Positions 16,307 through 37,841 of a DNA stretch of 64,000 nt are shown one piece after another; the stretch's first letter is position 1, and each line of letters starts with the position of its first letter. The stretch is from positions 1,503 to 65,502 of the forward strand of contig JAGOLX010000035.1 in the NCBI GenBank assembly GCA_017993835.1, in the 5' to 3' direction. This DNA is from Phycisphaerae bacterium (GTDB taxonomy: Bacteria > Planctomycetota > Phycisphaerae > Sedimentisphaerales > Anaerobacaceae). Below the pieces are notes generated by a model. It was not told the origin of the DNA and did no database searches. It was given only the letters and a program-made list of their open reading frames with translations. The position numbers and the translations under genes were made by a program.

Positions 16307-17812
16307 TCACTTGTCCTTCGAGACCGTGAATTCCTTTGTGCCGGTTACTGTACCGTAGAGCTCGTTGGTCTCGTACGTCACCTTGATCGTGAAGGTCTCT
16401 TCGGTGCCTTTGAGCGTCAGGTCTTCCGGTACTCGCCACGAGTACCCGCAGGTGCCGCCTCAGCCAAAGGGCATCGGGCCCTCCGCAACGGTTTGGCCCG
16501 ATGAGTTCGTGATTCGGATCGCCGGAGATACGGACTCGAACAGGTCCAGGCTGCGACCGTTTGGCAACTCGGTGGAGCCCGTCTTCTTCGTCGTGTCTTC
16601 CAGGGCGGAGATCATCGTGCCGGTGGCGGTGTCGCAGAGGGTGGCCTGGACTTGCAGCGTTTCGCCCACTTTGATGCGTCCGTCGGCCGCGGGACTCCTG
16701 AAGACCACTTCCGGCTTCCCCGAGAAATCCATCACGAACGGCTTGTCCTGTCGAATTGCGATGGGGAACACCGCCGGCGCATCCTTGTGCCCGAGCCGCG
16801 AGGTGTCGGTAGCGATGCCGATGCGGCGCAGACCATACCGCACGGCTAGGCGAAACGGCCTGTAGTCGCCGACAGGCAGGCTCAGCTTGCCGTCCTTCTG
16901 CGGGCAGTCGCTGAGATCGATGAAGGCGTCTCGGCTGGATATCCAGCCGAAGTCAATCGTCGGCGCAGCGATGTTCCGACCGCCCGCGCCGGTTTCGAGG
17001 ACCCCGAACGGACCCGAATATGGCGTGACGGTGACCTGGTCTCCCGAGGGTGTTGCCGAGAGGCTGTAGAACGTGCCGTTCGCGAAGCGCCAATACCCGA
17101 GCAGGGGGAGCGACTCGTCCATACCGGACAAAAACGCGCCCATCATCGGTCTGTCATACCGGCCGGCAATCGTGTGAACCTGAGCCAGCACCAGCTCGAC
17201 CTCCTGGGAACCGAGCCGGATCTTCCCTTTGCGGGCGGTCGGAGCGGTGAAGAACATGTAGGAGGCGTCCTCTCCCACCCTCATCAGACGCGGCATGACG
17301 ACCTGCGTGAACACCCCTTGGCCGGGGCCATAGTCGAAGTGAATCTGCACGTTCTCGAACAGGACGCTCCGCGGCATTTCCTGCATGTCGCCAGCGGGAT
17401 TCCTGGCGAGACCGACTACAGGGTCGTTGGTCAGATCGGAGTCATGGTTCGCGTCGAAGTACAGCCGATCGTAGCCTGCACTCGCCGATTCATCGAGCGC
17501 GAAGCAGTATTGCAGTCCCGCCTGGGGGTCGAACAGGCTCATGTCGAACGTGACGGTCCCATAGATGGGTTTGCCCGACTTGAACGTCGGATAGACAACT
17601 CCTGGAGTGGGCGTGTCGCCACAGTCGGGCGCCACCGTGCCCGATTGCAGTTGGCCCTTGGCGGTCCCGTCGTAGTTGAAGATGGAGATTTCCTCCAGGG
17701 GAAAGACTCTGCCGGTCGCCGCCGCAGGTTCGCCCCCGCGGACGAGCATCGCCGGCAGCAGACCCAACGTCGCCACGGCTACCCACAGGGTGAACTTCAC
17801 TTTCGCATTCAT
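16307..17812 (-). CDS. Exported selenoprotein candidate with EF-hand-like repeats and U-x3-C tail
   Basis: 501 residues if the TGA at 16462-16460 is read as selenocysteine (U451); a conventional call stops there at 450. A strong ribosome site (aaggag, 7 nt) and a signal peptide (MNAKVKFTLWVAVATLGLLPA) fix the start. The middle has a calcium-loop-like YFDANHDSDLTND and a beta-rich body; the last ~100 residues form a beta-domain ending PFG-U-GGTCGYSWRVP. After the TGA the frame stays open for 50 codons to a TGA at 16307. The joint matches five paralogs in this window (UxxxC, then YSWRVP). A SECIS-like hairpin follows at 16428-16446. The function is unknown; a secreted or periplasmic thiol/selenol redox role is inferred. 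The annotated coordinates include the read-through. Confidence 0.82.
16428..16446 (-). promoter_or_regulatory. Putative bacterial SECIS hairpin
   Basis: GGTACTCG-TGG-CGAGTACC is a perfect 8-bp stem with a UGG triloop. It begins 13 nt after the UGA, with the loop 21 nt after it. Bacterial SelB recognises a hairpin at about this distance with G and U in the loop (known from E. coli fdhF). The hairpin is inside the coding sequence for YSWRV. Confidence 0.78.
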
Positions 17813-19671: not shown

Positions 19672-21579
19672 CTACTTGAGAAGACGCGTATAGCCGACGC
19701 GCCGCGTCAGGCCGATCTTGTCGAAGTAATCCAGAAGCGGAATCGCGTATTTTCGCGTCGTGTCGAGGACGTACTTGAACTGGACGCTCTCCAGGCCGTT
19801 GTGCTCTTTGATGTACGCGATCAGCCGCTGGCGGGCGTCGGCGACCGCATCCGCGTGGAAGTACAAGTCCTGCTCGACCCGAACGAGTTTCTGTTGTTCG
19901 ATGAGGATTCGGATGGCCCGCTGGACCTGAGGGAGCGTGGTTCGGGTCTTGTCCGCGACCTCCTGCGGGCCGGGCGGACTGAACGGATGCATCTTGAACA
20001 TGGACTCGACGCTCTGCAACAGTTGCTGTTCGGCATCGTTGAACTGCTCGCGGTGTTCCGGCAAGGCCAGGCAGCCCTTCCGCTCGACCAGCCTGCCTTC
20101 GGACCGCAGACGTTCGATCAACGCGTCGAACACCTCCTTGCGGACCGCGGATTCCGCCATCAATTGCTCGCGAGCGATGCCGGGACTCTCCGGCCGCTGG
20201 CGGTGGAAGGCGAGGACGAGATCGAGCAACTGCTGTCGCACCCGCTGGGCGGTCTCGATGTGGACGTAGAGCCTGCCGCTCACAGGGAGGATGCGACCAG
20301 CGCCGGTCAGCTCCGCCAGCAGGGGGGCGAGTTCCTTCAGCGGGGTCTTCGTGCGGACGGAGATCTGCTTCTCATCGGCCGCGACCGACTCGGCGGTCCT
20401 GATGGAGTACTCGACGAAGTCCTTCGGATTGGCGGCAGCCTTGGCCCGCTCGGCCACATCCGCGAGAACGTCGGGATGGGTCCGCTTCAGACGGCGCTCG
20501 ATGGCCTCGACGACGATGCCGCCGCCGAGCGTTCGCATCGGAGACAGCGACCGCAGGATGAAATGGTCTCGCGGCCCGGCCACCACCGACTCATTCAAGA
20601 ACACCTGGATCAGGCATCGTTGACCGGGCTTGAGACTGCCTTCCTGGAACAGGTACACAGCCGCCGTGGTCTCCGAGGTCCCTGTATGGAACTTGACTCG
20701 CGCGCCGTTCTTGAAATCGGCCCGTTCATCGTCGAGCAGCTTGAACTCGCACAGGTACCACTGGTGCGGGGCGAAATAGCCGCTCATGCTGATGACGTTG
20801 CCGCGCTGGATGTCCTTGTGGTCCCATTGGGGGATGTTGATCGCGGCGCACTGGCCTGCCATGGCGCGGGTGCTGTCCCGGCCGTAGACCTGGACTGCCC
20901 GGACGCGACCCTTGTTCCGCTGGGGCAACAGCTCGACCTCGTCGCCGATGCCGATGGAGCCGCAGGTGGGAATCCCGGCCACGATGGTCCCGTAGCCCTT
21001 CGCGGCGAACGCCCGCTCGACCGGGACGCGGAAGATGCCGCTCGCCGTTTTGGGCGTGATGGCCGCCACCATCGTCTTGAGGGCCTCGTAGAATTCCTCG
21101 AAGCCCTGGCCTGTGATATTGGAAATCGGCAGGATCGGGGCATCCTGGAGGAATGTCCCCGTGACAAACTGCCGGATTTCCTGCGTCGCCGCCTGCGTTC
21201 GCTCGGGGGGGACCGCGTCCACCTTCGTCAGCGCGACGATCCCGTGCCGAACGCCTGACAGAGTCAGAATATCGAAGTGTTCGCGGGTCTGGGGCATCAC
21301 TCCGTCGTCGGCGGCCACGACGAGGATGCAACCGTCGATCCCGCTGGCGCCCGCCACCATGGTCTTGACGAAGTTCTCGTGGCCGGGGACGTCGACGATG
21401 CCGACCTCCAGGTCGGCGATCACGCACGGCGCGAAGCCCAGCTCGATCGACATGCCGCGTTCCTTCTCGATCTTGAGCCGGTCGGTGTCACAGCCGGTCA
21501 GGAGCTTGACGAGCGCGGTCTTGCCGTGGTCGACGTGGCCCGCGGTGCCGATGGTGATGTTGTGTTGCTGTGTGGTCAT
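19672..21579 (-). CDS. selB: Selenocysteine-specific elongation factor SelB
   Basis: 635 residues from ATG 21579; the longer frame to 21822 runs through repeat R10 and into selA and is rejected. The G domain opens with GTAGHVDHGKTALVKLLTGCDTD-type motifs (P-loop GHVDHGKT at residues 14-21), then DVPGHENFVKTM and LTKVDAV. EF-Tu-like beta domains follow, and the C-terminus has the winged-helix repeats of SelB (ending near LDYFDKIGLTRRVGYTRLL) that bind the SECIS hairpin. It delivers Sec-tRNA(Sec) to UGA codons in the cytosol. It is downstream of selA, with 85 bp of repeat-bearing DNA between them. Confidence 0.97.
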   Translation of the reverse strand: MTTQQHNITIGTAGHVDHGKTALVKLLTGCDTDRLKIEKERGMSIELGFAPCVIADLEVGIVDVPGHENFVKTMVAGASGIDGCILVVAADDGVMPQTREHFDILTLSGVRHGIVALTKVDAVPPERTQAATQEIRQFVTGTFLQDAPILPISNITGQGFEEFYEALKTMVAAITPKTASGIFRVPVERAFAAKGYGTIVAGIPTCGSIGIGDEVELLPQRNKGRVRAVQVYGRDSTRAMAGQCAAINIPQWDHKDIQRGNVISMSGYFAPHQWYLCEFKLLDDERADFKNGARVKFHTGTSETTAAVYLFQEGSLKPGQRCLIQVFLNESVVAGPRDHFILRSLSPMRTLGGGIVVEAIERRLKRTHPDVLADVAERAKAAANPKDFVEYSIRTAESVAADEKQISVRTKTPLKELAPLLAELTGAGRILPVSGRLYVHIETAQRVRQQLLDLVLAFHRQRPESPGIAREQLMAESAVRKEVFDALIERLRSEGRLVERKGCLALPEHREQFNDAEQQLLQSVESMFKMHPFSPPGPQEVADKTRTTLPQVQRAIRILIEQQKLVRVEQDLYFHADAVADARQRLIAYIKEHNGLESVQFKYVLDTTRKYAIPLLDYFDKIGLTRRVGYTRLLK

Positions 21580-21650
21580 CCGTCCTATTCGTCCTATCCG
21601 TCCCACAAGTCCCATAGGACGGATGGGACCTATGGGACCAATAGGACGTG
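21580..21650. repeat. Palindromic repeat R10 (cctattcgtcctat / atgggacctatgggac)
   Basis: The arms ccgtcctattcgtcctatcc and gggacctatgggaccaatag are imperfect inverted copies of a short unit. The element fills the selA-selB spacer and is open in the selB frame, which creates a false N-terminal extension rich in GPIGPIRPMG. Confidence 0.65.
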
Positions 21651-21664
21651 TTCTCGTGTGCTTT

Positions 21665-23089
21665 TCACGCGCCCGCCGAGAGCGCCGCGGCCACCGCCTC
21701 GACAAGGATCGCATCGTCGCCATCCCGCAGCGTTCGCGGGTCGAGGAGGACCTGGTCGTTCTGAATCCTGGCGAAAACCGGAGTCTCGTGGAGCCGCAAT
21801 CCTTTGGCCAGCGAATCGGCACTGATCTTCCTGGGCGTGATCGCCACGAGCGTCGTCGCCAGATTCTGCGAGGGCAACGACCCGCTGCCCATCTGTGAGA
21901 ATCCGCTGATCGTGGTCACGTCCGCGGCAACGTTCGTTTCGCGCAACTGCGAGGCCAGTCGCTCCGCGTGCCTGCGGATCTCGTCCGCGCTGCGCCGCAG
22001 CATTTGCAGCGTCGGCACCTCGCGCAGCGCGACGGCCTCGTCGAGGAACAGCTTGAGCGTCGCCTCCAGGACCGCCATCGTGAGCTTGCCCACGCGAACG
22101 ATCCGTGCGAACTGGTTCTTGCGGACCTTCTCGATCAGGGTCTTTCTGCCCAGGATGATGCCACCCTGCGAGGCGCCGATCAGCTTGTCGGCGCTGCTGG
22201 TGATGATGTCGGCCCCCGTGCGGACCGAGTCGGGAAGCGTGGGCTCCGGCTCGAACCCGAACTGAGAGAAATCGACCAAGGCGCCCGCCCCCACGTCGTC
22301 GATCATCACGAGGTTGTGCCGGTGTGCGATCTCGACCATGGCGTCGAGCGGGACCTCCGCGGAGAATCCCTGGATCTTGTAGTTGCTCGGGTGTACGCGG
22401 AGGATCGCGGCGGTGTTCTCGGTGATCGCGTTCTCGTAGTCGCGAGGGTGCGTCTTGTTCGTCGTGCCGACCTCGACCAGCTTGGCGCCGCTGAAGGCCA
22501 TCACCTCAGGCAGCCGGAACGAGCCGCCGATCTCGACGAGCTGGCCGCGAGAGACGATCACCTCCTTGCCCTTGGCCACCGTGTTGAGCACGATGGCGGT
22601 GGCTGCCGCGTTGTTGTTCACCACGGTCGCCGCCTCCGCGCCGGTGAGCCGCTGGAGGAGCCGCTCGATCTGCTCGTCGCGCCGGGACCGTTTGCCGGTG
22701 TCACGATCCACCTGGAGCAGGGAATAGCTTCGCAGGGTCGCCTGGATCTGCTCGACCGCCCTGGCGGAGAGCACCGCCCGGCCCAATCCCGTGTGCAGGA
22801 TGATCCCGGTGGCGTTCACCGCCCGGCGATAGAACGGCGCCGCCAGCGTCTCGATTCCGCGTGTCGCCGCCGAGACGACCTGCGCACGAATCGTCGCTTC
22901 ATCCGCATCGGGCGTTGGCTGGGCCAGAAGCCGCCGGCGAATCTCCTCGACCGCTTCGCGAACGCAGTCCGCGACGAGTTGACGCCCGTGCTCGGCCGCG
23001 AGGGATTCCATCTCGGGCTCCCTCAGGACCGAATCCACCGAAGGGACCCTCCGCATCAATTGTTGGGTCTGTGCATCCATGAAGATCAT
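21665..23089 (-). CDS. selA: L-seryl-tRNA(Sec) selenium transferase
   Basis: 474 residues, the usual SelA length. SelA converts Ser-tRNA(Sec) to Sec-tRNA(Sec) using selenophosphate and PLP. Motifs include TGIILHTGLGRAVLS, the VVNNNAAA segment, and the PLP lysine K302 in SSADKLIGASQGG. The ATG at 23089 has aggagg 6 nt upstream. It forms an operon with selB and the small UGA gene, and is divergent from the four-gene selenoprotein operon starting at 23405. Confidence 0.97.
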   Translation of the reverse strand: MIFMDAQTQQLMRRVPSVDSVLREPEMESLAAEHGRQLVADCVREAVEEIRRRLLAQPTPDADEATIRAQVVSAATRGIETLAAPFYRRAVNATGIILHTGLGRAVLSARAVEQIQATLRSYSLLQVDRDTGKRSRRDEQIERLLQRLTGAEAATVVNNNAAATAIVLNTVAKGKEVIVSRGQLVEIGGSFRLPEVMAFSGAKLVEVGTTNKTHPRDYENAITENTAAILRVHPSNYKIQGFSAEVPLDAMVEIAHRHNLVMIDDVGAGALVDFSQFGFEPEPTLPDSVRTGADIITSSADKLIGASQGGIILGRKTLIEKVRKNQFARIVRVGKLTMAVLEATLKLFLDEAVALREVPTLQMLRRSADEIRRHAERLASQLRETNVAADVTTISGFSQMGSGSLPSQNLATTLVAITPRKISADSLAKGLRLHETPVFARIQNDQVLLDPRTLRDGDDAILVEAVAAALSAGA

Positions 23090-23404: not shown

Positions 23405-23944
23405 ATGAACAGAAGAGAACTCATCGCCACCGGCGTCGTCATCGTGCTCGGCATGCTCGTGGCGTTCCCTCTCAGCAGGTTGTTCATCCCGTCGGCCCCA
23501 CGACAGGCAAGTCTCGTCGGCTCCGAGACGTCGATCCACCAGACGGACCACCAGGGGAACGACTGGTTCATCACGCCGGTGCGGGGGCAACCCGCGGTCG
23601 TGGATCCCAACGCGGCTCAGGCAAAACCTGTGATCGTCGTGAAGACCAACGTCAGCATGAACGGGCGGGAGGCATGGATCGGACTGGTCCTCCAGGATCG
23701 CGATGGCCGGCAGTACCAGCCGATCATCGTCAAGAGCGGGGTCCGGCTGTCGCCCCCGAAACTGAGAATCGTCAACGAAGCCGGAGAGGTGCTCCTCCAT
23801 GACAGTTTCCAATATGGCTGAGGTGGCACCTGTCGGCGCTCGTGGCGAGTGCCAGAGGGGTTCAAGGGCGACTTCCAGGTGCAAGTGGACATCGATCTTG
23901 GTCCGTTCCAGGTCGAGCACGAACGACCTTGGCATTCCCTCTGA
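23405..23944 (+). CDS. Small anchored selenoprotein candidate, copy 1
   Basis: 179 residues when the TGA at 23819-23821 is read as selenocysteine (U139); otherwise 138. gagagg precedes the ATG. One N-terminal membrane anchor or signal (ELIATGVVIVLGMLVAFPLS) is followed by a single beta-rich domain (AWIGLVLQDRDGRQYQPIIV) ending FQYG-U-GGTCRRSWRVP. The frame then continues as a conserved tail (EGFKGDFQVQVDIDLGPF) ending PWHSL. The next gene starts exactly 30 nt after this true end, the same spacing as the other two junctions in the operon. Its paralog at 25427 has the same length and the same U position. The role is unknown; an exported redox protein is inferred from the U-x3-C motif. Confidence 0.82.
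23835..23853 (+). promoter_or_regulatory. Putative bacterial SECIS hairpin
   Basis: GGCGCTCG-TGG-CGAGTGCC, 8 bp with one G-U pair and a UGG triloop, the loop 21 nt after UGA. Compared with the other copies the stem differs at two positions, and pairing is kept. Confidence 0.78.
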
Positions 23945-23974
23945 CAAGGCGCCGGGCCGACGCGGAGGGCCCAG

Positions 23975-25396
23975 ATGACCAAGCGACGCTGGACCATCCT
24001 GCTCGCGGCGATCCTCCTCGGCGTGGGATTGCTATGGCTCGTCCTCGGCCGCGAGCCCATCCAGGAGGGACGATGCAGGCTCAAACTCAAGCGGGTCGGC
24101 CAGCCCGGCGGACTGACCGGAATTGCATACCGTTTCCTGGACCGGCCAACCTCAGACAGTAACGGCATCCGCGACCTGCCGGAGGGGTTCGACAAGCCCT
24201 ACTATTATCGCGTCCGAGCCAATGACGCCGAAATTGCCCTCGTTGTGAATGGGACCAATCCATGGACCCTGTGTCTGGATACCGATCAAGACGGCCTCCT
24301 GTCCAACGAGAAGCTGTTTCAGGGCAAGATCCGCCAGATACGCGACTGGGGCAAGGACCAGCGGCATTATCTCTTCGGACCAGTCGAACTGGCCTTGCCA
24401 GATGAGTCAAGTGCACGCACCACAAGGTTCTGGTTGCTTGGATCCAGGATGGACGTCGCCGGGCAGCACGTGACCGAGTTGCCAAGAGTATTTGCGATCT
24501 ACCCCGCGGGGTATCGCACGGGACGGCTTCGCATCCAGGGACAGGCATACAACGTGGCCATCCTCGACGGGGACTATGATGGCTTGTTCAGCCCGGTCGA
24601 TCTTGCCAAGCGAGACCACATGAGACGGCCCGTGTGCGACTACTTCGCCATCGATCTCGACAAGAACGGCACATTTGAGCAAGACCTGTACCAACGTAAT
24701 GAGACCAGACCACTTGGCAGACTGGTGCTGCTCGGGGGCGTCTATTATGCGATTGACATCAGCGGCAATGGCCAGGAACTCGCGCTTTGGCCGATCGACC
24801 CCGAGAGAGGCACGCTCATCCTGGATCACGCGGATTGCGAAATCCAATGCAGGCTGTGGTCCGACGCCGCAGACCAGTGGATGACTGTGCCGGCCGGCCA
24901 AAAAGAACTGTCGCTGCCGGTTGGGAAGTACAGCATGGCTCGCGTCATCGTACGGGCCGCAGATGCGTCCGGCAGCACCTTAGAAGCCGCGTGTACGCGG
25001 GACTTTGGCACTCTGTCCCTGTTCGAAGTCAAAGCGGGGGAGACGACGCGACTCGACATCGGTCCGCCGTTCACCTGCACACCCAGAGTTGCCAAGACAG
25101 ACGACGGGACGGTCTCCATCGAGCCGATTCTCACGGGCCGCGCGGGGGAGGAGTATTCCATCATCGTGAAGCGAAACGGCAAGTCTGTGCCTGCCCCGGC
25201 CATGACAATCGTGGATGAGAAAGGGACCGTGTTGGAGACGGGCAAGTTCGAGTATGGCTGAGGTGGCACCTGCCGGTACTCGTGGCGAGTGCCAGAAGGG
25301 TTCAAAAGCAAGTTTCAGGTGCAGGTGGACATCGACCTCGGACCGTTCGAGGTCACGCACGAGCGACCGTGGCATTCGACCGGATCGGCCGATTAA
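23975..25396 (+). CDS. Large exported selenoprotein candidate with EF-hand-like loops, copy 1
   Basis: 473 residues with the TGA at 25259-25261 as selenocysteine (U429); otherwise 428. A ggagg ribosome site precedes the ATG. A membrane anchor (WTILLAAILLGVGLLWLVLG) leads into a body with three calcium-loop-like motifs (DTDQDGLLSNEK, DGDYDGLFSPVD, DLDKNGTFEQD). The C-terminal beta-domain (RAGEEYSIIVKRNG) is the same as in the small copies and ends KFEYG-U-GGTCRYSWRVP, then the tail EGFKSKFQVQVDIDLGPF. The stop is TAA at 25394. It is a paralog of the gene at 25997; the pair small-large is tandemly duplicated. Calcium binding is suggested by sequence only. Confidence 0.83.
25275..25293 (+). promoter_or_regulatory. 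Putative bacterial SECIS hairpin
   Basis: GGTACTCG-TGG-CGAGTGCC, 8 bp with one U-G pair and a UGG triloop, 21 nt after the UGA at 25259. Confidence 0.78.
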
Positions 25397-25426
25397 GAGG
25401 GCTGTGGAATATGACGATAGAAAGAC

Positions 25427-25966
25427 ATGCATACAAAGAGGAGCAATCTGCCCTATATCGTCGTTGGCGTCATTGCCGCAGCCATTCCATTATCGGCCCT
25501 GGTCACCGCGCCGCCAAGTGCGGCCGATGCTTCGTCCGTTTTGCAGGAGGAGCCGGGAATCCTCCGGCAGACCGACGAACTTGGCAACAACTGGGTCCTG
25601 CAACAGGCCGGCGGACCGTCGGTTCTGAGCTTCCACAAGCCGGGCTCGCCCATCACGGTGAAGACGGACGTTCGCAACACCGGTTCGGGCGTCGTGCTGA
25701 TCGGGCTGGTGCTGGAGGGCCGGGCCGGGGAAACTTACCGGCCGACCGCCATCAGAAACCGGGTCCCGGCGGACCCCGCGCATTTGCAGATTGTGGATAG
25801 GCAAGGCAATGTGCTCGACGAGGGCTACTTCGAATATGGCTGAGGCGGCGCCTGCCGGTACTCGTGGCGAGTACCCTCGGATGCCTCCGGCAAGTTCCAG
25901 GTGCAGGTGGACATCGACCTGGGCCCATTCAGCGTCAAGCACGACAGACCCTGGCATTCCCTCTGA
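25427..25966 (+). CDS. Small exported selenoprotein candidate, copy 2
   Basis: 179 residues with the TGA at 25841-25843 as selenocysteine (U139), identical in length and U position to copy 1; otherwise 138. The N-terminus is a signal or anchor (LPYIVVGVIAAAIPLSALV). The beta-domain (VLIGLVLEGRAGETYRPTAI) ends YFEYG-U-GGACRYSWRVP and continues to the tail KFQVQVDIDLGPF and PWHSL before TGA at 25964. The ribosome site is weak (gatagaaag), which fits translational coupling to the gene 30 nt upstream. This terminal TGA is a real stop: the next gene begins 30 nt later and the frame after it has no family similarity. Confidence 0.82.
25857..25875 (+). promoter_or_regulatory. Putative bacterial SECIS hairpin
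   Basis: GGTACTCG-TGG-CGAGTACC, a perfect 8-bp stem with a UGG triloop 21 nt after the UGA at 25841. Confidence 0.78.
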
Positions 25967-25996
25967 CCCAGCGCCGGGCCGGCGCGGAGGGTCCAG

Positions 25997-27388
25997 ATGA
26001 CGAAGCGACGCTGGACCATCCTGCTCGCGGCGGTCGTCCTGGGCGGAGGACTGCTCTGGGCACTCGTCGGCCGGGAGCCCGTCCTGGAGGGGCGGTGCAA
26101 GCTGACTCTCAGGAAGGCCGATTCGCACAGTCAACTGATGTCGCTGGCCTCTCAGATCATCCTTCCCTTGGATGGCAAGCCGGATCGCGCGCAGGACCTC
26201 CCCGACGGCTTCAGGCGGCCGACCTTCTATGAGATCAAGGGCGCCGACGGCCCGGTCCTGATGGCCGTGGACTACTCCCGGGACCTCCGACTGTGCATCG
26301 ACACGGATGGCGACGGCATTCTCTCGGAGGAGCGGTGTCTTGTGCCTACGGTCGTCACGGCTACGCGGAGAATGAGCCAATTCTACCGGTTCGGACCGAT
26401 CTCGCTGTCTTCCCGCACGAGTGGGGGCAGGATCGACGGCCGGTTCCACATCCGGTGCAATCGTGCAGATACGCCGGAGACGCTGACCGCACACCCGGTA
26501 TTCCTTCGCACGGGCAAGCTCCGCCTGGCCGGACGAACGTACCGAGTGGCCCTGGTGGATGGCGATCACGACGCTTCGTATCACTCGATGCTTTCGTTGC
26601 CCCTGGATCGTCCATGGCGAGTGCCCGCCTGTGACGTGTTCGCCATCGATCTGAATGGCGATGGGACATTCGAGTACTCGATGTCCGATCGATCCGAGGT
26701 CATGCCGCTCGGAAGGCTGGCAAAGGTCGAGGACGCCTATTACGCCGTCGATGTCGCCTCGGACGGACGGAGTCTTGCCCTTTCCAGGACCGAGCCGCAA
26801 TTCGGGACCCTGGTCGTGGAACCGGACGATGCGACCATGGAGTTGAGACTGTGGTCCGACGCCGCGGATCAGCATCTTCCTCAGGGCCGCCAGTGGCAAC
26901 TGCCCGCCGCCAGGTACAAAGCGGTTCATGCCATCCTCAAGAAGACGGATGCCTCGGGAGATGAATGGACGTTCTCGTCGAACCTCTCCTCGCCTTTCAC
27001 CTATCTTGGACCGTGCGAGTTCTTCACGATCGAGCCGGGCAAGACGACGTCGATTCGGATCGGGCCGCCTTTCGTCGTGCGAGCGGACGTGCGGAAGATC
27101 GACGCCGTGACGGTGGAGATCGGTCCCGTCCTCGTTGGCTGTGCGGGAGAGCAATACCGGGCGGACTTCCGACGAAACAACCGTCGCCCGCCTGAACGAG
27201 AATTCAAGATCGTGGACGAGAAAGGGACCGTGTTGGAAACGGGCAAGTTCGAGTATGGCTGAGGTGGCACCTGCCGGTACTCGTGGCGAGTGCCAGAAGG
27301 TTTCAAGGGCAAGTTCCAGGTGCAGATCGAGATGGACCTGGGGCCCTTCGAAGTCACCCAAGAAAGGAGTTGGCACTCCATCGAGTAG
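25997..27388 (+). CDS. Large exported selenoprotein candidate with EF-hand-like loops, copy 2
   Basis: 463 residues with the TGA at 27260-27262 as selenocysteine (U422); otherwise 421. It has the same plan as the gene at 23975: an N-terminal anchor (WTILLAAVVLGGGLLWALVG), calcium-loop-like motifs (DTDGDGILSEER, DLNGDGTFEYS), and a C-terminal beta-domain ending KFEYG-U-GGTCRYSWRVP with the tail FKGKFQVQIEMDLGPF. The stop is TAG at 27386. It is the last gene of the operon: a strong terminator follows 25 nt later. The upstream leader (gcgccgggcc..gcgcggaggg) is nearly the same as before copy 1, which marks the duplication unit. Confidence 0.83.
27276..27294 (+). promoter_or_regulatory. Putative bacterial SECIS hairpin
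   Basis: GGTACTCG-TGG-CGAGTGCC, 8 bp with one U-G pair and a UGG triloop, 21 nt after the UGA at 27260. Confidence 0.78.
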
Positions 27389-27413
27389 TCGCATCGCGAT
27401 CCCAGCGTGTACC

Positions 27414-27450
27414 GGCGGGTTCAGAGATGTCTCTGGCCCGCCTTTTTTAT
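27414..27450 (+). terminator. Rho-independent terminator of the selenoprotein operon
   Basis: GGCGGG-TT-CAGAGA-TG-TCTCTG-G-CCCGCC forms a 12-bp interrupted stem followed directly by TTTTTT. It lies 25 nt after the TAG that ends the fourth gene in the read-through model, and about 150 nt after its UGA. Confidence 0.9.
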
Positions 27451-27481
27451 TGGTCAAGGATGTTTTCCAGGAGGTACGAGA

Positions 27482-28567: not shown

Positions 28568-29371
28568 GTGAAGAGCGTCAGTGGAATCGGTTTGAAGGAT
28601 GTGCAGGGGGTCTACAGCGGACCCGAGGGGAAACTGTGGGAACTGATTATGGGCGAGCAGATCCACATCGGGGGCCTCACCTCGTCGATGGATCTGTCGG
28701 AGCAGGCGGGGATCAAAGCCGGGAGCACAGGCGTCGATCTATGCTGCTGCAGCGGCGCCGGGATGCGATTCCTCGTTCGCTTCCGCAACGTCGCCCGGAT
28801 GCGCGGCGTGGACGCCACCCCGACGGTCGTCGAGCTGGGCATACAGCGGTGCCAGCAGGCGGGTCTGGCCGACCGGATCGACTTCACCCTGGCCGACGTG
28901 TGCAGCAGCGGGCTACCGGCCAACAGCGCCGACTTCGTCTGGGGCGAGGACGCCTGGTGCTACGTCGTGGACAAGAACAAGCTGATCGCGGAGGCGGCCC
29001 GGGTCGTCAAGCCCGGCGGCGTCATCGCGTTCACCGACTGGGTCGAGGGCGAAGGCCTGTCGCAGGCAGAGGCCCAGCGGTTCCTTCGCTTCATGAAGTT
29101 CCAGAACATCGAGAGCATTGGCGGATACAGCGATCTTCTGAAGGCCAACGGCTGCGAGGTGATCGCCGCCAAGGACACCGGCCGGTTCGCACCGTACATG
29201 GATCTGTACCTCAACATGATCGGCATGCAGTTGACGTATGACGCATTGCAGATTATTGGTTTCGATCAGGCCATGATGGCGGCCCTGGCGGCGGAGATGA
29301 CCTTCGCGCAGCAACTCGCCCACGCGGGCAAGATCGTCCAGGGCCTGTTCGTCGCACGAAAGAACAAATGA
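28568..29371 (+). CDS. SAM-dependent class I methyltransferase
   Basis: 267 residues from a GTG with aaggag 7 nt upstream. The class I fold is visible: motif I VDLCCCSGAGMRFLV near residue 59 (a Cys-rich variant of the usual D-x-G-x-G), then VDATPTVVELG, a DVCSSGLPANSADFVWGEDAW stretch for motif IV, and RVVKPGGVIAFTDW for post-motif. The general plan is that of small-molecule N-methyltransferases. Its substrate is unknown. It is upstream of three 2-hydroxyacyl-CoA dehydratase-like genes, an activase and selD on the same strand, so a shared pathway is plausible. Confidence 0.82.
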   Translation: MKSVSGIGLKDVQGVYSGPEGKLWELIMGEQIHIGGLTSSMDLSEQAGIKAGSTGVDLCCCSGAGMRFLVRFRNVARMRGVDATPTVVELGIQRCQQAGLADRIDFTLADVCSSGLPANSADFVWGEDAWCYVVDKNKLIAEAARVVKPGGVIAFTDWVEGEGLSQAEAQRFLRFMKFQNIESIGGYSDLLKANGCEVIAAKDTGRFAPYMDLYLNMIGMQLTYDALQIIGFDQAMMAALAAEMTFAQQLAHAGKIVQGLFVARKNK

Positions 29372-29379
29372 CAAGAGGA

Positions 29380-29455: not shown

Positions 29456-29485
29456 ACTTGAGTGGTGATTAGAAGGGAGAACATG

Positions 29486-30733
29486 ATGGGAAACTGCTGT
29501 GACAAGCGGGATGTGAAGATCGATCCGACCGATCCGTGTCACCCGCCGCAGGTGTCGTGCGGGTCGAAGAGCGCGACGGCGGCGATGGCGACTGGATGTC
29601 CGCTGGCGTGGTTCGAGCAGATGATCCCGAACTGCCTGCAATACGCCCAGGATGCCAAGGCCAAGGGCAAACGGATCGTCGGGATCATGTGCGAGTACAC
29701 GCCGCGGGAACTGATCATGGCGGCGGGCGCTGTGCCGGTCTGCCTGTGCGGCGGCTCGGCCCAGACCATCGGCCCGGCCGAGGAGCACCTGCCCGCCAAT
29801 CTCTGTCCGCTCATCAAATCCACTTACGGCTATCACGTCCAGAAGGCGAATCCGTTCCTGGAGATGGCGGACCTGATCGTCGCGGAGACCACCTGCGACG
29901 GCAAAAAGAAGATGTACGAGCTAATGGCCCAGACCCGCGCGATGCACGTGCTGGAGCTTCCTCAGAAGCCCGACGACCCCGATGCCATGGCCCACTGGGT
30001 CCGCGAGCTGCACAAGCTCAAGGCCCGGCTCGAGGACACCTTCGGCGTCGCGATCTGCGACGAGAAGATCCGCCAGGCGATCCGCACGATGAATCGCGAG
30101 CGCCTCCTCCGTCGGCAGTTGGCGGAGCTGATGAAAGCGGACCATCCGCCGCTGACCGGTCGACAGTTGCTCCAGTACAAGAGCAGCATCTCGGGCCTCT
30201 GCGCCGACCTCGCACAGTACGAGCGGGCGCTGGGCATGTATGCAGCCAAGAAGCCCGCCGGGAATTCCGCAGTCCGCGTCCTGATGACGGGCGTCCCCAT
30301 GGCGCACGGCGCCGAGCGAGTGATCGAGATCATCGAATCACACGGCGGGCTCGTCGTCTGCACCGACAACTGCACGGGATTGAAGCCGGTCCTCGAAGAC
30401 GTGGACGAGACAGCGCCCGATCCCATCGTCGCACTGGCCGAGAAGTACTTCCATCTGCCGTGCTCGGTCATGACGAAGAACACGCGCCGGTTCGATATCC
30501 TGCGGGACCTGGCGAGGGAGTATCGCGCCCAGTGCGTGATCGACCTCGTCTGGCAGGCGTGCCTGACGTACGACGTCGAGTCGTTCTTCGTCAAGCAGTT
30601 GACGGAGAAGGAACTGGGCGTCCCGTATTTGCGAATCGAGACGGATTACTCGCCCTCCGATTCCGCACGGATCGCGCTGCGGGTCGAGGCGCTGTTCGAG
30701 ACCGTCGGGCAGAGGGCCTCTGCGAAGGCATGA
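29486..30733 (+). CDS. 2-hydroxyacyl-CoA dehydratase / double-cubane-cluster-like protein
   Basis: 415 residues. aagggag precedes two adjacent ATGs; I use the second. The N-terminus is unusually Cys-rich (MGNCCDK, DPCHPP, VSCGSK, ATGCPLAW). The HgdB/BcrB/YjiM core follows, with GIMCEYTPRELIMAAGAVPVCL, LCPLIKSTYG and DLIVAETTCDGKKKM, the last a family hallmark placing Fe-S ligands. The C-terminal half has CVIDLVWQACLTYDVES. Enzymes of this group accept low-potential electrons from an ATP-driven activase to reduce or dehydrate difficult substrates. The substrate is unknown. The gene overlaps the next by 4 nt. Confidence 0.86.
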   Translation: MGNCCDKRDVKIDPTDPCHPPQVSCGSKSATAAMATGCPLAWFEQMIPNCLQYAQDAKAKGKRIVGIMCEYTPRELIMAAGAVPVCLCGGSAQTIGPAEEHLPANLCPLIKSTYGYHVQKANPFLEMADLIVAETTCDGKKKMYELMAQTRAMHVLELPQKPDDPDAMAHWVRELHKLKARLEDTFGVAICDEKIRQAIRTMNRERLLRRQLAELMKADHPPLTGRQLLQYKSSISGLCADLAQYERALGMYAAKKPAGNSAVRVLMTGVPMAHGAERVIEIIESHGGLVVCTDNCTGLKPVLEDVDETAPDPIVALAEKYFHLPCSVMTKNTRRFDILRDLAREYRAQCVIDLVWQACLTYDVESFFVKQLTEKELGVPYLRIETDYSPSDSARIALRVEALFETVGQRASAKA

Positions 30734-31632
30734 CAGATCCGACTGGAACCATCGTGTATACGTGTCCTTACGTGCCGGCGGAGTGGATCGCGGCGCACGG
30801 CCTCCGGCCGCGCCGGCTGATCCCGCTGCCGACCGAGAGCCAATCCGTCGCACTGCGGCTGGAGGGCCTGTGCCCCTACGCCCGGGCCTTTGTCAACGAC
30901 GCCGCAGCCGAGAACGCCGACGGAATCGTCGTCACAACCCTGTGCGACCAGATGCGCCGGGTCTACGATCTGCTCGTTCGCGACAGCGGCAAGCCTGCGT
31001 TCCTGCTGAACGTGCCGAAGACCTGGCAGACGGTCGCCGCACAAAGGCTCTACGTGGACGAACTGAAACGCCTGGGGCGCTTTCTGATCCGCCTCGGCGG
31101 TCGGACGCCATCCAACGAAGACCTCGCGAAGACAATGGTCGAATATGTAGGGTGTGCTGTGCACACCATCTCTCCTATGCCTCGGAAAGACGGCGTGCCG
31201 ATCGCGGTGGTCGGAGGCCCCTTGATGCAGCGAGATCGCGTCCTCTTCAATCTTATCGAGGACAGCGGCGGACGGGTCGTCCTCGACGCCACCGAGACCG
31301 GTCTGCGAGGACAACGACGACCCTTCGACCGCAGACGTCTCGTCGAAGATCCGCTGCTGGAACTTGCCGATGCGTATTTCAGCATTCCCGATGCCTCCCG
31401 CAGACCCAACAGCGGATTGTACAAATGGCTCAAAAACGAACTCGTCAAAACGAACGCCAGGGGGATCGTCTTTCATCATTACCTGTGGTGCGACGCCTGG
31501 CGGGCGGAGCTGTCGAGATTGAGAGAGTGGGCGAGCCTGCCCGTGCTCGGGCTCGACGGCGATGCGTATGATGAGACGAATCTGGCCCGTTCGCAGAACC
31601 GCATTCGGGCGTTTCTGGAGATGTTGCATTGA
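30730..31632 (+). CDS. 2-hydroxyacyl-CoA dehydratase-like subunit, short form, with in-frame repeat
   Basis: 300 residues. It is a shorter relative of the HgdB fold (TIVYTCPYVPAEWIAAHG; LEGLCPYARAFVNDA; ADGIVVTTLCDQMRRVYDL). Four-base ATGA overlaps or similar coupling join it to both neighbours. Codons for VGCAVHT near residue 141 come from a piece of repeat R5 (31147-31168), in a region between the two lobes of the fold. It probably forms a heteromer with the flanking subunits; the substrate is unknown. Confidence 0.8.
   Translation: MTDPTGTIVYTCPYVPAEWIAAHGLRPRRLIPLPTESQSVALRLEGLCPYARAFVNDAAAENADGIVVTTLCDQMRRVYDLLVRDSGKPAFLLNVPKTWQTVAAQRLYVDELKRLGRFLIRLGGRTPSNEDLAKTMVEYVGCAVHTISPMPRKDGVPIAVVGGPLMQRDRVLFNLIEDSGGRVVLDATETGLRGQRRPFDRRRLVEDPLLELADAYFSIPDASRRPNSGLYKWLKNELVKTNARGIVFHHYLWCDAWRAELSRLREWASLPVLGLDGDAYDETNLARSQNRIRAFLEMLH
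31147..31168. repeat. Repeat R5, partial copy in frame
   Basis: gtagggtgtgctgtgcacac is the same unit as the arms of the R5 palindrome at 7467-7534. It is read through in the short dehydratase-like gene. Confidence 0.7.
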
Positions 31633-33008
31633 CCGACGCGCCGGCACAGATCAGCTTGGAGCAGTGGGACCGCCGATACGACCGCTTGCACGCGGCGGGC
31701 TTGAGCGAGCCCGTCTATGGCGGACCGCTCAGCCGGCACGTGGCCGACGGCGACACCCGACTGCTCAAGCTCCGCTATGACAATTCGCCCGCGGCCCTGC
31801 GACTGTGGAACTTCCTCCTGACCGAGGAGGATCGGCTCCAGGCCGCCCGCGCCAGCGGCAAGAGACTCGTCGGCACGATGAAGGACCTCGGCACCGTGCC
31901 CGTGATGGCGTACAGCCTCGAGAATGTCACTGCGTTCTACCCCGACGGCGCCTGGTGGATCCCCTGCGTGATGGAGCTGAACGCGGGTCTGCTCCAGATC
32001 GCCGACTCGCTCGGCATCGACGAGTCGTTCTGCCCGGTCCGCGCGATGCTCGGCGCATTCGTCACCGAGGCGCACTTCCCCATTCCCGACTTGCTGACGT
32101 GCAGCGTCGGCGCGACGTGCGATGATTTCTCCGCGATCGCCCAGCGCCTCAATGGGCTGGGCTACCCGATTCTGTGGTGGGAGATCCCGCACCGCAGGAC
32201 CCCCGAGCCCGGTGAGGAGGTCGTGACGCTGCCCGGCGGCTTCTCGGCGCCGAGGAACCAGGTCAGATTCGTTGAATCAGAGTTGTGCCGAGTTCGCGCG
32301 GCACTGGAGGAGACCGCCGGCCGGACCCTCGATGAAACAACGCTCGCCCAGGGAATCGCGAAGGCGAATCGCGTGCGCGACCTGCTCGATCGACTTCGAC
32401 ATCTGGCGTTCACGGCCCCGCGATGTCCGATGCCTGCCCTGGAGATGCTGATTGCGGAAATGCTCGCGATTCACTTCTGCTCCGATCGCGAGGAGACGAT
32501 CCGGGTCCTGGAGGAGCTGCTCGACGAGGTCAACCATCGCGTGGCGGCGCGGACAGGGTACCTGTCGCCCGACGCAGCCCGAATCTTCTGGGTGAACCCG
32601 GTGGCCGATTTGCAGGTGATGAACCTGCTGGAGGACTGCGGCGGGCGGGTCTGCGGCACGGAGTACCTCTTCACCCACGCGCTCGACGCCATCCCGACGA
32701 CCCTGCCTCCGATGGAGGCGCTGGCCCAGATGGCGTTGGCCGACCCGATGGTCGGCTCGGCAATCGATCGCGCGACGAGGATCGTCTCCGATATCGGGCG
32801 ATTCGGCGCGGAAGGCGTGCTCATCTCCCGCATCCCGGGCGCAAGCCACTGCGCTCTCGAGGGCGAAATCATCGGCCAGATCGTTCGAGAGCAGTGCGAC
32901 GTGCCTGTCGTGGAGGTCGAGGTGCCCTCCATCACGGACGCGACGCAGGCGACGCTGTGCACCCGGCTGGAGGCGCTCGTGGAAACGGTCAGGGAGAAGA
33001 GACAATGA
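31629..33008 (+). CDS. 2-hydroxyacyl-CoA dehydratase-like subunit, third
   Basis: 459 residues from a TTG that overlaps the upstream stop (TTGA). The body has the two-lobe HgdB-type plan (GTVPVMAYSLENVTAFYPDG; DLLTCSVGATCDDFS; then RIFWVNPVADLQVMNLLEDC and GVLISRIPGASHCALEGE). Cys residues in CSVGATC, CGTEY and HCALEGE could bind an Fe-S cluster. Together with the two upstream subunits and the downstream activase it forms a four-gene unit of unknown substrate. Confidence 0.8.
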   Translation: MTDAPAQISLEQWDRRYDRLHAAGLSEPVYGGPLSRHVADGDTRLLKLRYDNSPAALRLWNFLLTEEDRLQAARASGKRLVGTMKDLGTVPVMAYSLENVTAFYPDGAWWIPCVMELNAGLLQIADSLGIDESFCPVRAMLGAFVTEAHFPIPDLLTCSVGATCDDFSAIAQRLNGLGYPILWWEIPHRRTPEPGEEVVTLPGGFSAPRNQVRFVESELCRVRAALEETAGRTLDETTLAQGIAKANRVRDLLDRLRHLAFTAPRCPMPALEMLIAEMLAIHFCSDREETIRVLEELLDEVNHRVAARTGYLSPDAARIFWVNPVADLQVMNLLEDCGGRVCGTEYLFTHALDAIPTTLPPMEALAQMALADPMVGSAIDRATRIVSDIGRFGAEGVLISRIPGASHCALEGEIIGQIVREQCDVPVVEVEVPSITDATQATLCTRLEALVETVREKRQ

Positions 33009-33016
33009 AGAGAAAC

Positions 33017-33190
33017 TCGAAATGCGAAATGCGAAACAAGCACAAATGACCCAAACCCAAAATCCCAAACAAACCATCGGAAGGGCGACAGCGTTTCTGT
33101 CATTTGGATTTTGGACCTTTGGATTTGTTTCGGATTTCGAGCTTCGGATTTCGGGTTTCCGCGCCTCGCGGCTTTGGATTTTGTGCTTCT
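33017..33190. repeat. Palindromic repeat R11 (cgaaatgcg / ttcggattt family)
   Basis: The left part (gaaatgcgaaatgcgaaaca, then caaatgacccaaacccaaaa) is roughly mirrored by gtcatttggattttggacct and tcggatttcgagcttcggat on the right. It fills the spacer before the activase gene, and the false upstream extension of that frame (FGFRASDFGFPRL) comes from it. Confidence 0.7.
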
Positions 33191-33200
33191 GAGGAATGAC

Positions 33201-33992
33201 ATGACGGTCTATGCAGGAATCGACGCCGGGTCGAGAGCGATCAAGGTCGTGCTGATCGACGTGAACGGCTCACGGATCATCGCCAAGGCCCAGGCCGATC
33301 AGGGCATCGAGCAGGACAGGCTTGCCTGCGGGCTGTTCGCCAGGACTCTCGCGGACAACGGCATCGGCGAGTCCGACGTTCGGCGCATCGTCGCGACCGG
33401 CTACGGACGCAGCGCGATCCACCTCGCCCATACGACGATCACCGAGATCACCTGCCACGCGGCGGGCGTACGCCACCTCGTTCCCGATGCCAAGACCATC
33501 ATCGACATCGGCGGGCAGGACAGCAAGCTCATTCGCCTGGACGGCGCCGGCAAGGTGCGGGATTTCGCCATGAACGACCGCTGTGCCGCGGGCACGGGCC
33601 GGTTCCTCGAAGTGGTGGCCGACCGACTGAGCGTCCCGGTCGATAGTCTCGGTCGAATGGCGTCAAAGAGTCGCAACCCCGCCGCGATCAGCAGCATGTG
33701 CGTGGTCTTCGCGGAAACCGAGATCATCGGTCTGCTGGCAGGAGGGCGGCCGGGAGAGGACATCGTCGCAGGCGTCCAGAACGCGATTGCCTCGCGGATC
33801 GTCGCGATGGCGGGTCGCAGCGTCGAACCGCCCATCCTCTTCACCGGCGGCGTCGCGCGGATCTCGGGCATGGAGACCGCCTTGCAGACCGCTCTGGGGC
33901 AACCGGTCTCGATCTCCCCCGCGCCGCAGATGACCGGCGCGCTCGGCGCCGCCTTGCTCGCGCGACGGTTTTGTGAAAACGACGAGGCGTGA
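33201..33992 (+). CDS. ATP-dependent activase of 2-hydroxyacyl-CoA dehydratases (HgdC/BadF type)
   Basis: 263 residues from ATG 33201 (gagg 6 nt upstream). It has the ASKHA ATPase fold: YAGIDAGSRAIKVVLID phosphate loop, IIDIGGQDSKLI second loop. The two Cys that hold the subunit-bridging [4Fe-4S] cluster are in NDRCAAGTGRF and SSMCVVFAETEII, as in HgdC. Each ATP-driven cycle passes one low-potential electron to the dehydratase partner. It follows the three dehydratase-like genes and precedes selD on the same strand. This system requires anoxic conditions. Confidence 0.93.
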   Translation: MTVYAGIDAGSRAIKVVLIDVNGSRIIAKAQADQGIEQDRLACGLFARTLADNGIGESDVRRIVATGYGRSAIHLAHTTITEITCHAAGVRHLVPDAKTIIDIGGQDSKLIRLDGAGKVRDFAMNDRCAAGTGRFLEVVADRLSVPVDSLGRMASKSRNPAAISSMCVVFAETEIIGLLAGGRPGEDIVAGVQNAIASRIVAMAGRSVEPPILFTGGVARISGMETALQTALGQPVSISPAPQMTGALGAALLARRFCENDEA

Positions 33993-34221: not shown

Positions 34222-35859
34222 ATGATCGATAGGGAACGAAGGAAACGAGTGATGCAGCGGTCCATCAGGCTGGGGCACTGCATCTGCGACGCGAAGCAGC
34301 CTTGTCCCTGCCCGACATTCAAACAGAAGGGCATCTGCTCCTGTGCAGGCGAGCGGGAAGACAGTCCGACCGGGCCGGTCCGCCTGACCAAGCTCGTCGA
34401 GAAAGCGGGATGCGCGTCGAAGATCGACCAGGCGTTTCTCAAGAGCGTGCTGAAGGACCTGCCGCCGGTGGACGATCCCCGCGTCCTGGTGGGCATGGCC
34501 GCCGGCGACGACGCAGGCATTTACGACATGGGCGACGGCCAGGCCCTGGTGCAGACGGTCGATGTCTTCACCCCCTCGGTGGACGATCCGTACACCTTCG
34601 GCCAGGTCGCGGCGGCCAACTCCGTCAGCGACATCTACGCCATGGGCGGCACGCCGATGACCGCGTTGTCCGTCATCGGATTCCCCGTGCGGAAGATCCC
34701 CGATCAGGCCATGCTCGAGATCCTCCGTGGCGGCATCGACAAGATGAAGGAGGCCGGCTGCGCCATTATCGGCGGCCACAGCATCAACGATCCCGAGGTC
34801 AAAGCGGGCTTCGCGGTCACTGGGCGGATTGACAAGGGCCGCGTCGTCACGAATGCCGGCGCGAGGCCGGGCGATGTACTGATCCTGACGAAGCCTCTGG
34901 GCACAGGGATCGTCGCGTTCGCCGCCCAGATCGACCGGGCCCGGCCCGAGAGCGTCGCGGCCACGGCTGCGTCGATGACCTCCCTGAACAAGACCGCCGC
35001 GGAACTGATGGTCGAGTTCGGCGCGCATGCCTGCACCGATGTGACGGGCTTCAGTCTCATGGGCCACCTGGCGGAGATGGCACGCTCGAGCGGTGTGGAC
35101 GTGCGAATCATCTGGGACGATCTGCCCCTGTTCGAAGGCGTGCTGGAATACGCAGCGGGTGGCATCCTGCCCGGCGCGATCGAGCGGAACAAGGAATCCT
35201 GCGCCGACCGGGTCGTGCCCTCCGAGCGTCTGCCGCAGGAGATGGTAGATATCTGCTTCGACGCCCAGACCTCGGGCGGATTGTTGATAGCAATCGAGCA
35301 GGCCAAAGCAGCGCAGTTGTTGAAGGCCCTCCACAATCGCGGCGTCCCGGCGGCAACGATCATCGGCAAGGTCGCAAGCAAAGGGGCAGGCCTGATTCAT
35401 CTCGAAACCACGGGCGCACGCAAGATCCCGTCGCCCGAGTCTGCTCGTACGGCCGAGTCCCCTCAATCATCAATCATAAATCGTCAATCATCAATGCAAG
35501 AGGTTCCCTGCTGTGCCGACGCCATCAGCAATGTAGCACCCCCGCCCTCGGGGGTGAGTTCCACCCAGCCGGGGGCGGCTGGGCTACACGAGACGGCCCA
35601 GGTCCAGGCGGCGTTCAAGCAGTTCCTCAGCGCCGCCAGTTCGCCGCATGGTCTGGATGCCTATACGAAGCAGGCCATGGCGCTGGCGCTGTCGGTTGCG
35701 CTGCGGTGCGAGCCGTGTCTGAAAATGCACTTGACGAACGCTCGCAAGAAGGGCTTCACGCAGGCGGAGATCGACGAGGCCGCCTGGATGGGCATCAGTT
35801 TCGCAGGTTCGCCTGCGATGGTGTTCTACCAGCAGGTTCTTGAAGCCGCAGACAAGTAG
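34222..35859 (+). CDS. selD: Selenide, water dikinase fused to an AhpD-like domain through repeat DNA
   Basis: 545 residues in one frame. SelD makes selenophosphate from selenide and ATP, the selenium donor for SelA. The catalytic pair is C64 and K67 (KAGCASKI), followed by AAGDDAGIY and VFTPSVDDPYTFG metal/ATP motifs. Odd features are a Cys-rich N-terminal extension of about 45 residues (GHCICDAKQPCPCP; ICSCAGE) and a C-terminal AhpD/carboxymuconolactone-decarboxylase-like domain with C496-E-P-C499 (ALRCEPCLKMH). The joint, about residues 416-456, is low-complexity and is encoded by a gtcaatcatcaat repeat and by R2 (35533-35587), so a real fusion and two genes with a chance open spacer are both possible. 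The start at 34222 has ggag 9 nt upstream. Confidence 0.92.
   Translation: MIDRERRKRVMQRSIRLGHCICDAKQPCPCPTFKQKGICSCAGEREDSPTGPVRLTKLVEKAGCASKIDQAFLKSVLKDLPPVDDPRVLVGMAAGDDAGIYDMGDGQALVQTVDVFTPSVDDPYTFGQVAAANSVSDIYAMGGTPMTALSVIGFPVRKIPDQAMLEILRGGIDKMKEAGCAIIGGHSINDPEVKAGFAVTGRIDKGRVVTNAGARPGDVLILTKPLGTGIVAFAAQIDRARPESVAATAASMTSLNKTAAELMVEFGAHACTDVTGFSLMGHLAEMARSSGVDVRIIWDDLPLFEGVLEYAAGGILPGAIERNKESCADRVVPSERLPQEMVDICFDAQTSGGLLIAIEQAKAAQLLKALHNRGVPAATIIGKVASKGAGLIHLETTGARKIPSPESARTAESPQSSIINRQSSMQEVPCCADAISNVAPPPSGVSSTQPGAAGLHETAQVQAAFKQFLSAASSPHGLDAYTKQAMALALSVALRCEPCLKMHLTNARKKGFTQAEIDEAAWMGISFAGSPAMVFYQQVLEAADK
35533..35587. repeat. Palindromic repeat R2 inside the selD-ahpD frame
   Basis: gtagcacccccgccctcggg on the left and cagccgggggcggctgggct on the right match R2 in reversed orientation. 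It is translated as about VAPPPSGVSSTQPGAAGL. Confidence 0.85.
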
Positions 35860-37395: not shown

Positions 37396-37490
37396 GGAGG
37401 TGACTGGCGTCTGGTGGCGCTCCTGGTCTTCAAAACCAGTGTAGGGCCGAGAAGGTCCTGGGTGGGTTCGATTCCCATTCGCCTCCGCCA
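37396..37490 (+). tRNA. selC: tRNA-Sec (anticodon TCA)
   Basis: 95 nt with an encoded CCA end. The acceptor stem has eight pairs (ggaggtga with tcgcctcc), a hallmark of bacterial tRNA-Sec. The anticodon arm ctggt-cttcaaa-accag presents TCA, which reads UGA. A long variable arm (tgtagggccgagaaggtcct) and a T arm (tgggttcgattccca) follow. The 75-bp spacer to the divergent selenoprotein gene contains TATACT at 37360-37365, a possible -10 box for selC. Immediately downstream lies the small CPTU protein. Confidence 0.97.
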
Positions 37491-37507: not shown

Positions 37508-37777
37508 ATGGAAAAGCATAGAACAGGCGCATCGGTCGTGCTGATCGCTATCGGGGCTGCCCTGCTGCTCTATGGCCTTTCTTTGAGGGCCGAGGTTGCA
37601 GCACCCTCCGACGAGCAGAGTCAGGTCCAGGTTCAAGTCCCGTCGGCGCCTGAGCCGCCTGCCTCGCAGGGAACTGTCGCCAAGGACGAGGTCACGCAAG
37701 GGGAGCCAAACCGGGTCAAGCCGCCGGCCAAGGAGCCGACGAAGACCCCTGCGGCCTGCCCTACCTGAGGCAAGTAA
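37508..37777 (+). CDS. Small membrane-anchored selenoprotein candidate ending in CPTU
   Basis: 89 residues when the TGA at 37766-37768 is read as selenocysteine (U87); the stop is then TAA two codons later. An N-terminal anchor (VVLIAIGAALLLYGLSL) is followed by about 55 residues of Pro/Gln/Glu-rich linker and the tail AACPT-U-GK. Cys84-x-x-Sec87 is a classic CxxU redox pair carried at the end of a flexible tether, as in thioredoxin-reductase-type tails. A UGU-loop hairpin follows the UGA at SECIS distance, beyond the TAA. It starts 17 nt after selC and is followed, 64 nt later, by a NapH-like ferredoxin-type membrane protein, a possible redox partner. ATG 37508 is preferred over GTG 37502. 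Confidence 0.65.
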
Positions 37778-37783
37778 CTCCCC

Positions 37784-37800
37784 GCCGTGGTGTCCACGGC
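37784..37800 (+). promoter_or_regulatory. Putative bacterial SECIS hairpin
   Basis: GCCGTGG-TGT-CCACGGC, a perfect 7-bp stem with a UGU triloop, the loop 22 nt after the UGA. It lies after the TAA, so it is under no protein-coding constraint. Confidence 0.68.
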
Positions 37801-37841
37801 TCAGACAGACTCAGATCGACACTCCCCCCGAACAAGGAGCC

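Follow-up and report, generated by a model that had tools for sequence, protein, structure and literature searches.

Do the in-frame UGA codons of four tandem genes terminate translation or encode selenocysteine (Sec, U), and what would the resulting proteins do? This question is raised by an operon at positions 23405–27388 of a 64,000-nucleotide (nt) stretch of Phycisphaerae bacterium DNA (contig JAGOLX010000035.1), referred to here as the window. Each of the four tandem genes (4/4) carries one in-frame TGA within the context ...YG-U-GG-x-C-x-x-SWRVP, at coordinates that we verified (Table 1), and all four proteins share a C-terminal tail ending in (D)LGPF...W-H-S. Comparison of the sequences across genomes leads us to the view that UGA is almost certainly decoded as Sec in this family. 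The best overall explanation, to which we give a probability of about 0.82, is that these are genuine selenoproteins with an extracytoplasmic selenol redox role.

Decoding of the in-frame UGA

With the distal stops, all three inter-gene spacers are exactly 30 nt, and the two small proteins (genes 1 and 3) both comprise 179 amino acids (aa) with U139; with the TGA taken as stop, the spacers become 153, 165 and 153 nt. These regularities, on which a preliminary description of the locus had relied, all hold. It had also relied on the open frame beyond the TGA, which indeed extends for 40, 44, 40 and 41 codons in genes 1–4, but openness by itself is weak evidence because 80 of 136 long TGA-terminated frames (~59%) in this GC-rich window are likewise open for at least 40 codons past the TGA. 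The same proportion is what favors reading the TGAs as ordinary stops or sequencing artefacts, followed by similarity that is not translated. The case for Sec therefore rests on the conserved tail, the selenocysteine insertion sequence (SECIS), the homologues and the switch to Cys.

SelB would deliver Sec-tRNA to the in-frame UGA owing to a short hairpin that begins 17 nt past the first base of the UGA. Counted from that U, the hairpin spans +17 to +33, with a 6-bp stem and the loop R-U-G-G-C. Across 44 diverse copies, 92.4% of the stem cells are paired and double compensatory changes occur in all six pairs (6/6; 36 compensated cells), a level of pairing that is reached by 0 of 500 shuffles and is lost when the alignment is slid. 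In the copy on contig C26, the peptide SWRVP is replaced by RWPEP with the stem retained (GCUCCG-GUGGC-CGGAGC); as read from this copy, conservation at the hairpin is in the RNA and not in the peptide. Separately, genes 2 and 4 are near-identical over ~95 nt around the UGA and SECIS (25219–25311 versus 27222–27314), far above the remainder of the genes, which points to local gene conversion or to a strong constraint on the RNA.

Downstream of the hairpin, the differences that separate the copies number 3078, 2245 and 5619 at codon positions 1, 2 and 3, respectively, and the median pN/pS is 0.33. The C26 copy contains F5_F8_type_C (485–587) and Laminin_G_3 (758–892) domains, both above cut-off and wholly after U395. 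Furthermore, ~275–325 post-UGA codons of the D-type members encode a conserved membrane domain of about seven transmembrane (TM) helices, which aligns over 32 proteins from several phyla. This third-position bias and pN/pS after the SECIS, together with the Pfam domains and the seven TM helices that lie past the UGA, argue against ordinary stops.

The genome from which the window comes (the own genome) holds 11 family copies by genome search, each with one TGA. Six lie in the window, including two on the minus strand that are absent from the preliminary description, and five lie outside it, on contigs C112, C2, C68, C26 and C9. In a profile search the domain is present in 43 of 119 relatives. 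Only two of the matches listed lack a stop at the site and none has TAA or TAG, whereas homologues in many genomes ending there with TAA or TAG had been named in advance as fatal to a Sec assignment. In the GTDB collection (84,980 species), the codon preceding GGTC[RSG]YSWR, which the scan pattern leaves unspecified, is TGA in 71 of 71 distinct copies from Planctomycetota, Verrucomicrobiota, Lentisphaerota, Hydrogenedentota, BRC1 and Riflebacteria, again at odds with ordinary stops. This cross-phylum occurrence rejects a family restricted to the operon; with at least six architectures and six phyla, its breadth is larger than first stated. The phylum-level profile search finds the family in at least 21 of 392 genomes, a lower bound with few candidates scored per genome.

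Consistent with the preliminary description, selA, selB, selC (tRNA-Sec) and selD all lie inside the window. SelB is above cut-off in 32 of the 119 relatives, and the domain is present in 32/32 of those (Fisher test, 6e-20); five genomes (G001, G004, G025, G034 and G112) are explained by partial selB, SelA or tRNA-Sec. At the phylum level, SelA is common (236/392 genomes) and is found in only 18 of 20 UGA genomes. It is rejected as a perfect marker at that level, and the tight link to sel genes therefore holds in the order and not in the whole phylum.

The most telling comparison comes from a single genus (g64), within which Sec and Cys alternate at the site. The SelA-bearing genome G521 has UGA and SECIS, and four genomes without SelA (G096, G102, G520 and G523) have TGC (Cys) at the aligned position with the hairpin gone. 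Neither SelB above cut-off nor tRNA-Sec is found in G096 and G102. The Cys form is homologous on both sides of the site and shares 42% identity over the post-site membrane domain with the own-genome UGA copy. Cys at the U position in genomes lacking the machinery is what the preliminary description had proposed to look for, and these congeners supply it; they also speak against ordinary stops, and they make the loss of Sec use directly traceable within one genus.

Several observations weigh against Sec decoding. The Sec position is occupied by AGA (Arg) in one A/B copy, and four genomes (G019, G047, G065 and G070; metagenome-assembled, 79–90% complete) carry a UGA copy with no sel gene found. 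In addition, the GGTCxYSWR/YSWRVP pattern is in part the hairpin sequence itself, which biases the scan to Sec forms; profile searches, which do not depend on the GGTCxYSWR motif alone, agree with the TGA result. The AGA paralogue (L094, a 467-aa frame) reads FEYG-R-NWMCQYRWRVP in an otherwise intact frame, and its relatives have UGA. The Sec site is affected by an indel in another copy without a stop (L189, on contig C186 of G165; YEYGGRFGHCGYWW), whose genome contains UGA copies and gives no SelA match. UGA copies without sel genes (loci L074, L075 and L076) may reflect assemblies that are incomplete or remnants left by a recent loss of Sec.

The Sec assignment is thus upheld by SECIS covariation, post-UGA coding conservation, co-occurrence with sel genes, replacement by Cys and the absence of TAA or TAG among the homologues listed, and we give next to no weight to ordinary stops or artefacts. 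Reading of UGA as a residue other than Sec, by a suppressor tRNA or a code change, is just as improbable and has nothing specific in its favor: TGA also terminates genes 1 and 3 and the fifth copy at the same locus, by which a changed code is rejected, and the conserved SECIS hairpin, the co-occurring sel genes and the replacement by Cys all oppose it.

Fold, export and candidate function of the Sec domain

The Sec domain is very probably carried by exported proteins. This call, which agrees with the preliminary description, comes from signal or N-terminal hydrophobic segments and TM domains. In AlphaFold2 models of gene 2 (predicted local distance difference test, pLDDT, 89.5) and of a D-type seven-TM (7-TM) member (mean pLDDT 86.9), the domain is predicted to be an all-beta sandwich resembling immunoglobulin (Ig), fibronectin type III (FnIII) and MG1 domains (Z 7–8, the range of common arrangements). 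One of the fold matches is 4zjh (Z 8.2, root-mean-square deviation 2.4 over 79 residues, ~9% identity). Foldseek returns only generic beta-sandwich matches for both models and no clear match for the 7-TM part, which does not by itself imply a new fold; a PDB sequence search gives no match for the Sec domain. In five loci (L119, L121, L123, L129 and L131), the gene immediately after that for the 7-TM D-type protein encodes an E-type protein (EQWLQYRS...) with a single C-terminal TM helix. Both genes have UGA, and together they form a conserved two-gene membrane unit.

In the mechanism that we propose, Sec would sit in the loop F/M-x-Y/F-G-U-G-G-x-C of a mobile Ig/FnIII-like beta-sandwich on exported proteins, and the Sec/Cys pair would form a reversible selenenylsulfide outside the cytoplasm. 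That Sec and the nearby Cys make up such an extracytoplasmic selenol redox site is, on balance, what the sequences favor. The 7-TM member would anchor the Sec domain in the membrane, an adjacently encoded NapH-like iron–sulfur (Fe-S) membrane protein would possibly supply electrons to it, and the copies of types A, B and C would act as terminal reductants or as partners, either soluble or tethered. In L124, L135, L136, L143 and L146, from Verrucomicrobiota, Hydrogenedentota, BRC1 and Riflebacteria, the NapH-like gene is flanked by selB and the gene for the 7-TM selenoprotein; we consider a NapH-linked electron chain doubtful. More tentative still is a wider scheme of selenium-dependent extracytoplasmic electron transfer from the NapH-like protein through the 7-TM selenoprotein to a battery of secreted Ig-like selenoproteins, with this family as the main reason that the order keeps its Sec machinery. 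The last element is suggested because the domain occurs in every SelB-positive relative and because the alpha subunit of formate dehydrogenase, the commonest Sec client and the one surveyed here, is missing from the own genome.

Three points count against the selenol redox role. The fold matches are common beta-sandwiches and are uninformative on function; NapH adjacency occurs in only some loci; and the Cys at U+4 is missing in the C2 copy (SUGAARYSW) and in the divergent GUGGGGWAS and GUGSQATGTW. The preliminary description had proposed a U-x3-C redox motif. With G before U in 162 of 166 copies and Cys at U+4 in 156 of 166, the pair is supported as the usual spacing but not as a universal one, and the exceptions mean that the family does not require a fixed U-x3-C pair. 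Taken together with the vicinal CC of the g64 Cys form, they make a second chalcogen near U appear usual and movable, which would fit a redox pair better than it would a metal site of fixed geometry.

In the stronger of two rival functions, the Sec/Cys site would not cycle electrons but would bind or trap, at the cell surface, a soft metal(loid) or a species of organoselenium or mercury (for detoxification, capture or selenium acquisition). The genomic setting lends this reading some appeal: loci lie within a selenium-utilization island with double-cubane reductases, an ArsM/DVU_1556-like methyltransferase and a SelD-CMD fusion, HGD-D and activase genes have earlier been tied to selenium genes (PMC5322559), and double-cubane proteins figure among published putative selenium genes (PMC10418091). 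The vicinal CC of the Cys form could also serve such binding. The C-, D- and E-type copies, however, are often away from the sel island, and no further conserved Cys or His ligands are evident in the aligned domain, so that we hold metal(loid) capture to be unlikely.

Somewhat less probable again is a structural role in proteins of the surface or of S-layer/adhesin type, with Sec-Cys serving as a covalent tether or as a selenenylsulfide that stabilizes the structure. Ig-like beta-sandwiches do resemble adhesin, S-layer and macroglobulin domains, Ca-loop-like DTDGDG repeats occur (a weak EF-hand match), and one member has F5/8C and LamG domains. By comparison, Sec would be costly for a static bond, Cys almost never replaces it where sel genes exist, and the conserved 7-TM member and NapH neighbor suggest more than a scaffold.

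Features and neighborhood of the window

The operon is directly followed by a gene for a DUF3034 protein (27407–28396), which is likewise found downstream in several other loci. Across loci, the recurrent neighbors are selA, selB, selD, the BadF activase, the DVU_1556/ArsM-like methyltransferase and the NapH-like Fer4_5 protein, and HGD-D/double-cubane reductases account for 14 of 110 sampled neighbors. The window cluster at 28568–35859 (methyltransferase, two double-cubane-type reductases, activase and SelD-CMD) recurs in many phyla. The SelD-CMD protein, an uncommon fusion, also has a Cys-rich N-terminal extension. The sixth copy is convergent with selD and adjoins tRNA-Sec.

Table 1. Positions of the features within the window (U, Sec residue)
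Feature	Position	Strand	Details
Selenoprotein gene 1	23405..23944	+	small A-type, 179 aa, U139 at 23819-23821, true stop TGA 23942-23944
Selenoprotein gene 2	23975..25396	+	B-type, 473 aa, U429 at 25259-25261, stop TAA
Selenoprotein gene 3	25427..25966	+	A-type, 179 aa, U139 at 25841-25843, stop TGA
Selenoprotein gene 4	25997..27388	+	B-type, 463 aa, U422 at 27260-27262, stop TAG
Fifth copy	16307..17812	-	C-type, 501 aa, MPFG-U-GGTCGYSWRVP, U451 at 16460-16462, terminal stop TGA
Sixth copy	35867..37285	-	472 aa, LEYG-U-SSFCAYSWRIP, U421 at 36023-36025; start codon inferred
SECIS hairpin, gene 1	23836..23852	+	6 bp, loop GUGGC
SECIS hairpin, gene 2	25276..25292	+	
SECIS hairpin, gene 3	25858..25874	+	
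SECIS hairpin, gene 4	27277..27293	+	
SECIS hairpin, fifth copy	16429..16445	-	
SECIS hairpin, sixth copy	35992..36008	-	GUAUUC/GAAUAC
selB	19672..21822	-	TIGR00475 above cut-off
selA	21665..23089	-	divergent from operon; TIGR00474 above cut-off
selD fused to C-terminal CMD/AhpD-like domain	34222..35859	+	TIGR00476 + PF02627
tRNA-Sec (selC)	37396..37486	+	RF01852 76.1 bits, ARAGORN
DVU_1556/ArsM-like S-adenosylmethionine (SAM) methyltransferase	28568..29371	+	conserved neighbor; below curated cut-offs
Double-cubane-cluster anaerobic reductase (DCCP)	29462..30733	+	NF040772 above cut-off; conserved neighbor
Second HGD-D/double-cubane-like reductase	31629..33008	+	PF06050
BadF-type activase (DCCP reductase)	33111..33992	+	TIGR00241 above cut-off
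NapH/NosR-like ferredoxin-type membrane protein	37596..38720	+	PF12801

Novelty and comparison with known systems

The preliminary description had called the family not known, and the searches agree. No match above cut-off is found in NCBIfam (2026) for 12 proteins or in Pfam at the Sec domain for 14 proteins, and the family is not recognizable in the displayed part of the table of a 2026 review (PMC13188914), in deep-Sep (PMC12013277) or in the main text of a study on planctomycete selenoproteins (PMC4807772). The decoding is textbook; what appears new is the protein family, together with its scale and modular spread. The literature compared is the open-access part, and an earlier mention is possible. 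There are almost no Cys relatives and the UGA is called a stop, so that Cys/Sec-pair searches and standard annotation miss the family, and gene finders reading UGA as stop shorten its proteins in several phyla. The module that would carry Sec here is exported and Ig-like, in place of a thioredoxin fold; it occurs in up to ~11 copies per genome and is mobile over at least six architectures, a 7-TM membrane protein among them. The loci connect selenium use with double-cubane reductases and NapH-like electron transfer, and they offer a testable system in Planctomycetota and Verrucomicrobiota.

Our comparison with the SelB-dependent bacterial SECIS (bSECIS) selenoproteins of the E. coli fdhF type reveals the same in-frame UGA, intragenic hairpin just downstream, selA/B/C/D in the genome and Cys homologues in genomes without the machinery, whereas the protein family, fold and location differ and Cys homologues are very rare in the family described here. 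The selenium islands of double-cubane reductases (DCCP/DCCPR with sel genes) likewise have DCCP, activase and methyltransferase genes adjoining, and the exported selenoprotein family is not reported with such islands in the papers compared here. Alpha-2-macroglobulin MG1, FnIII and Ig-like domains share the predicted beta-sandwich topology but contain neither Sec nor the YGUGG loop. Thioredoxin-like UxxC/CxxU selenoproteins (DsbA-like, TlpA-like UGC and deiodinase-like) also have Sec near Cys, and some of them are extracytoplasmic; by comparison, the family described here has U-x3-C in a predicted all-beta Ig/FnIII-like domain, which is distinct from the alpha/beta fold of thioredoxin.

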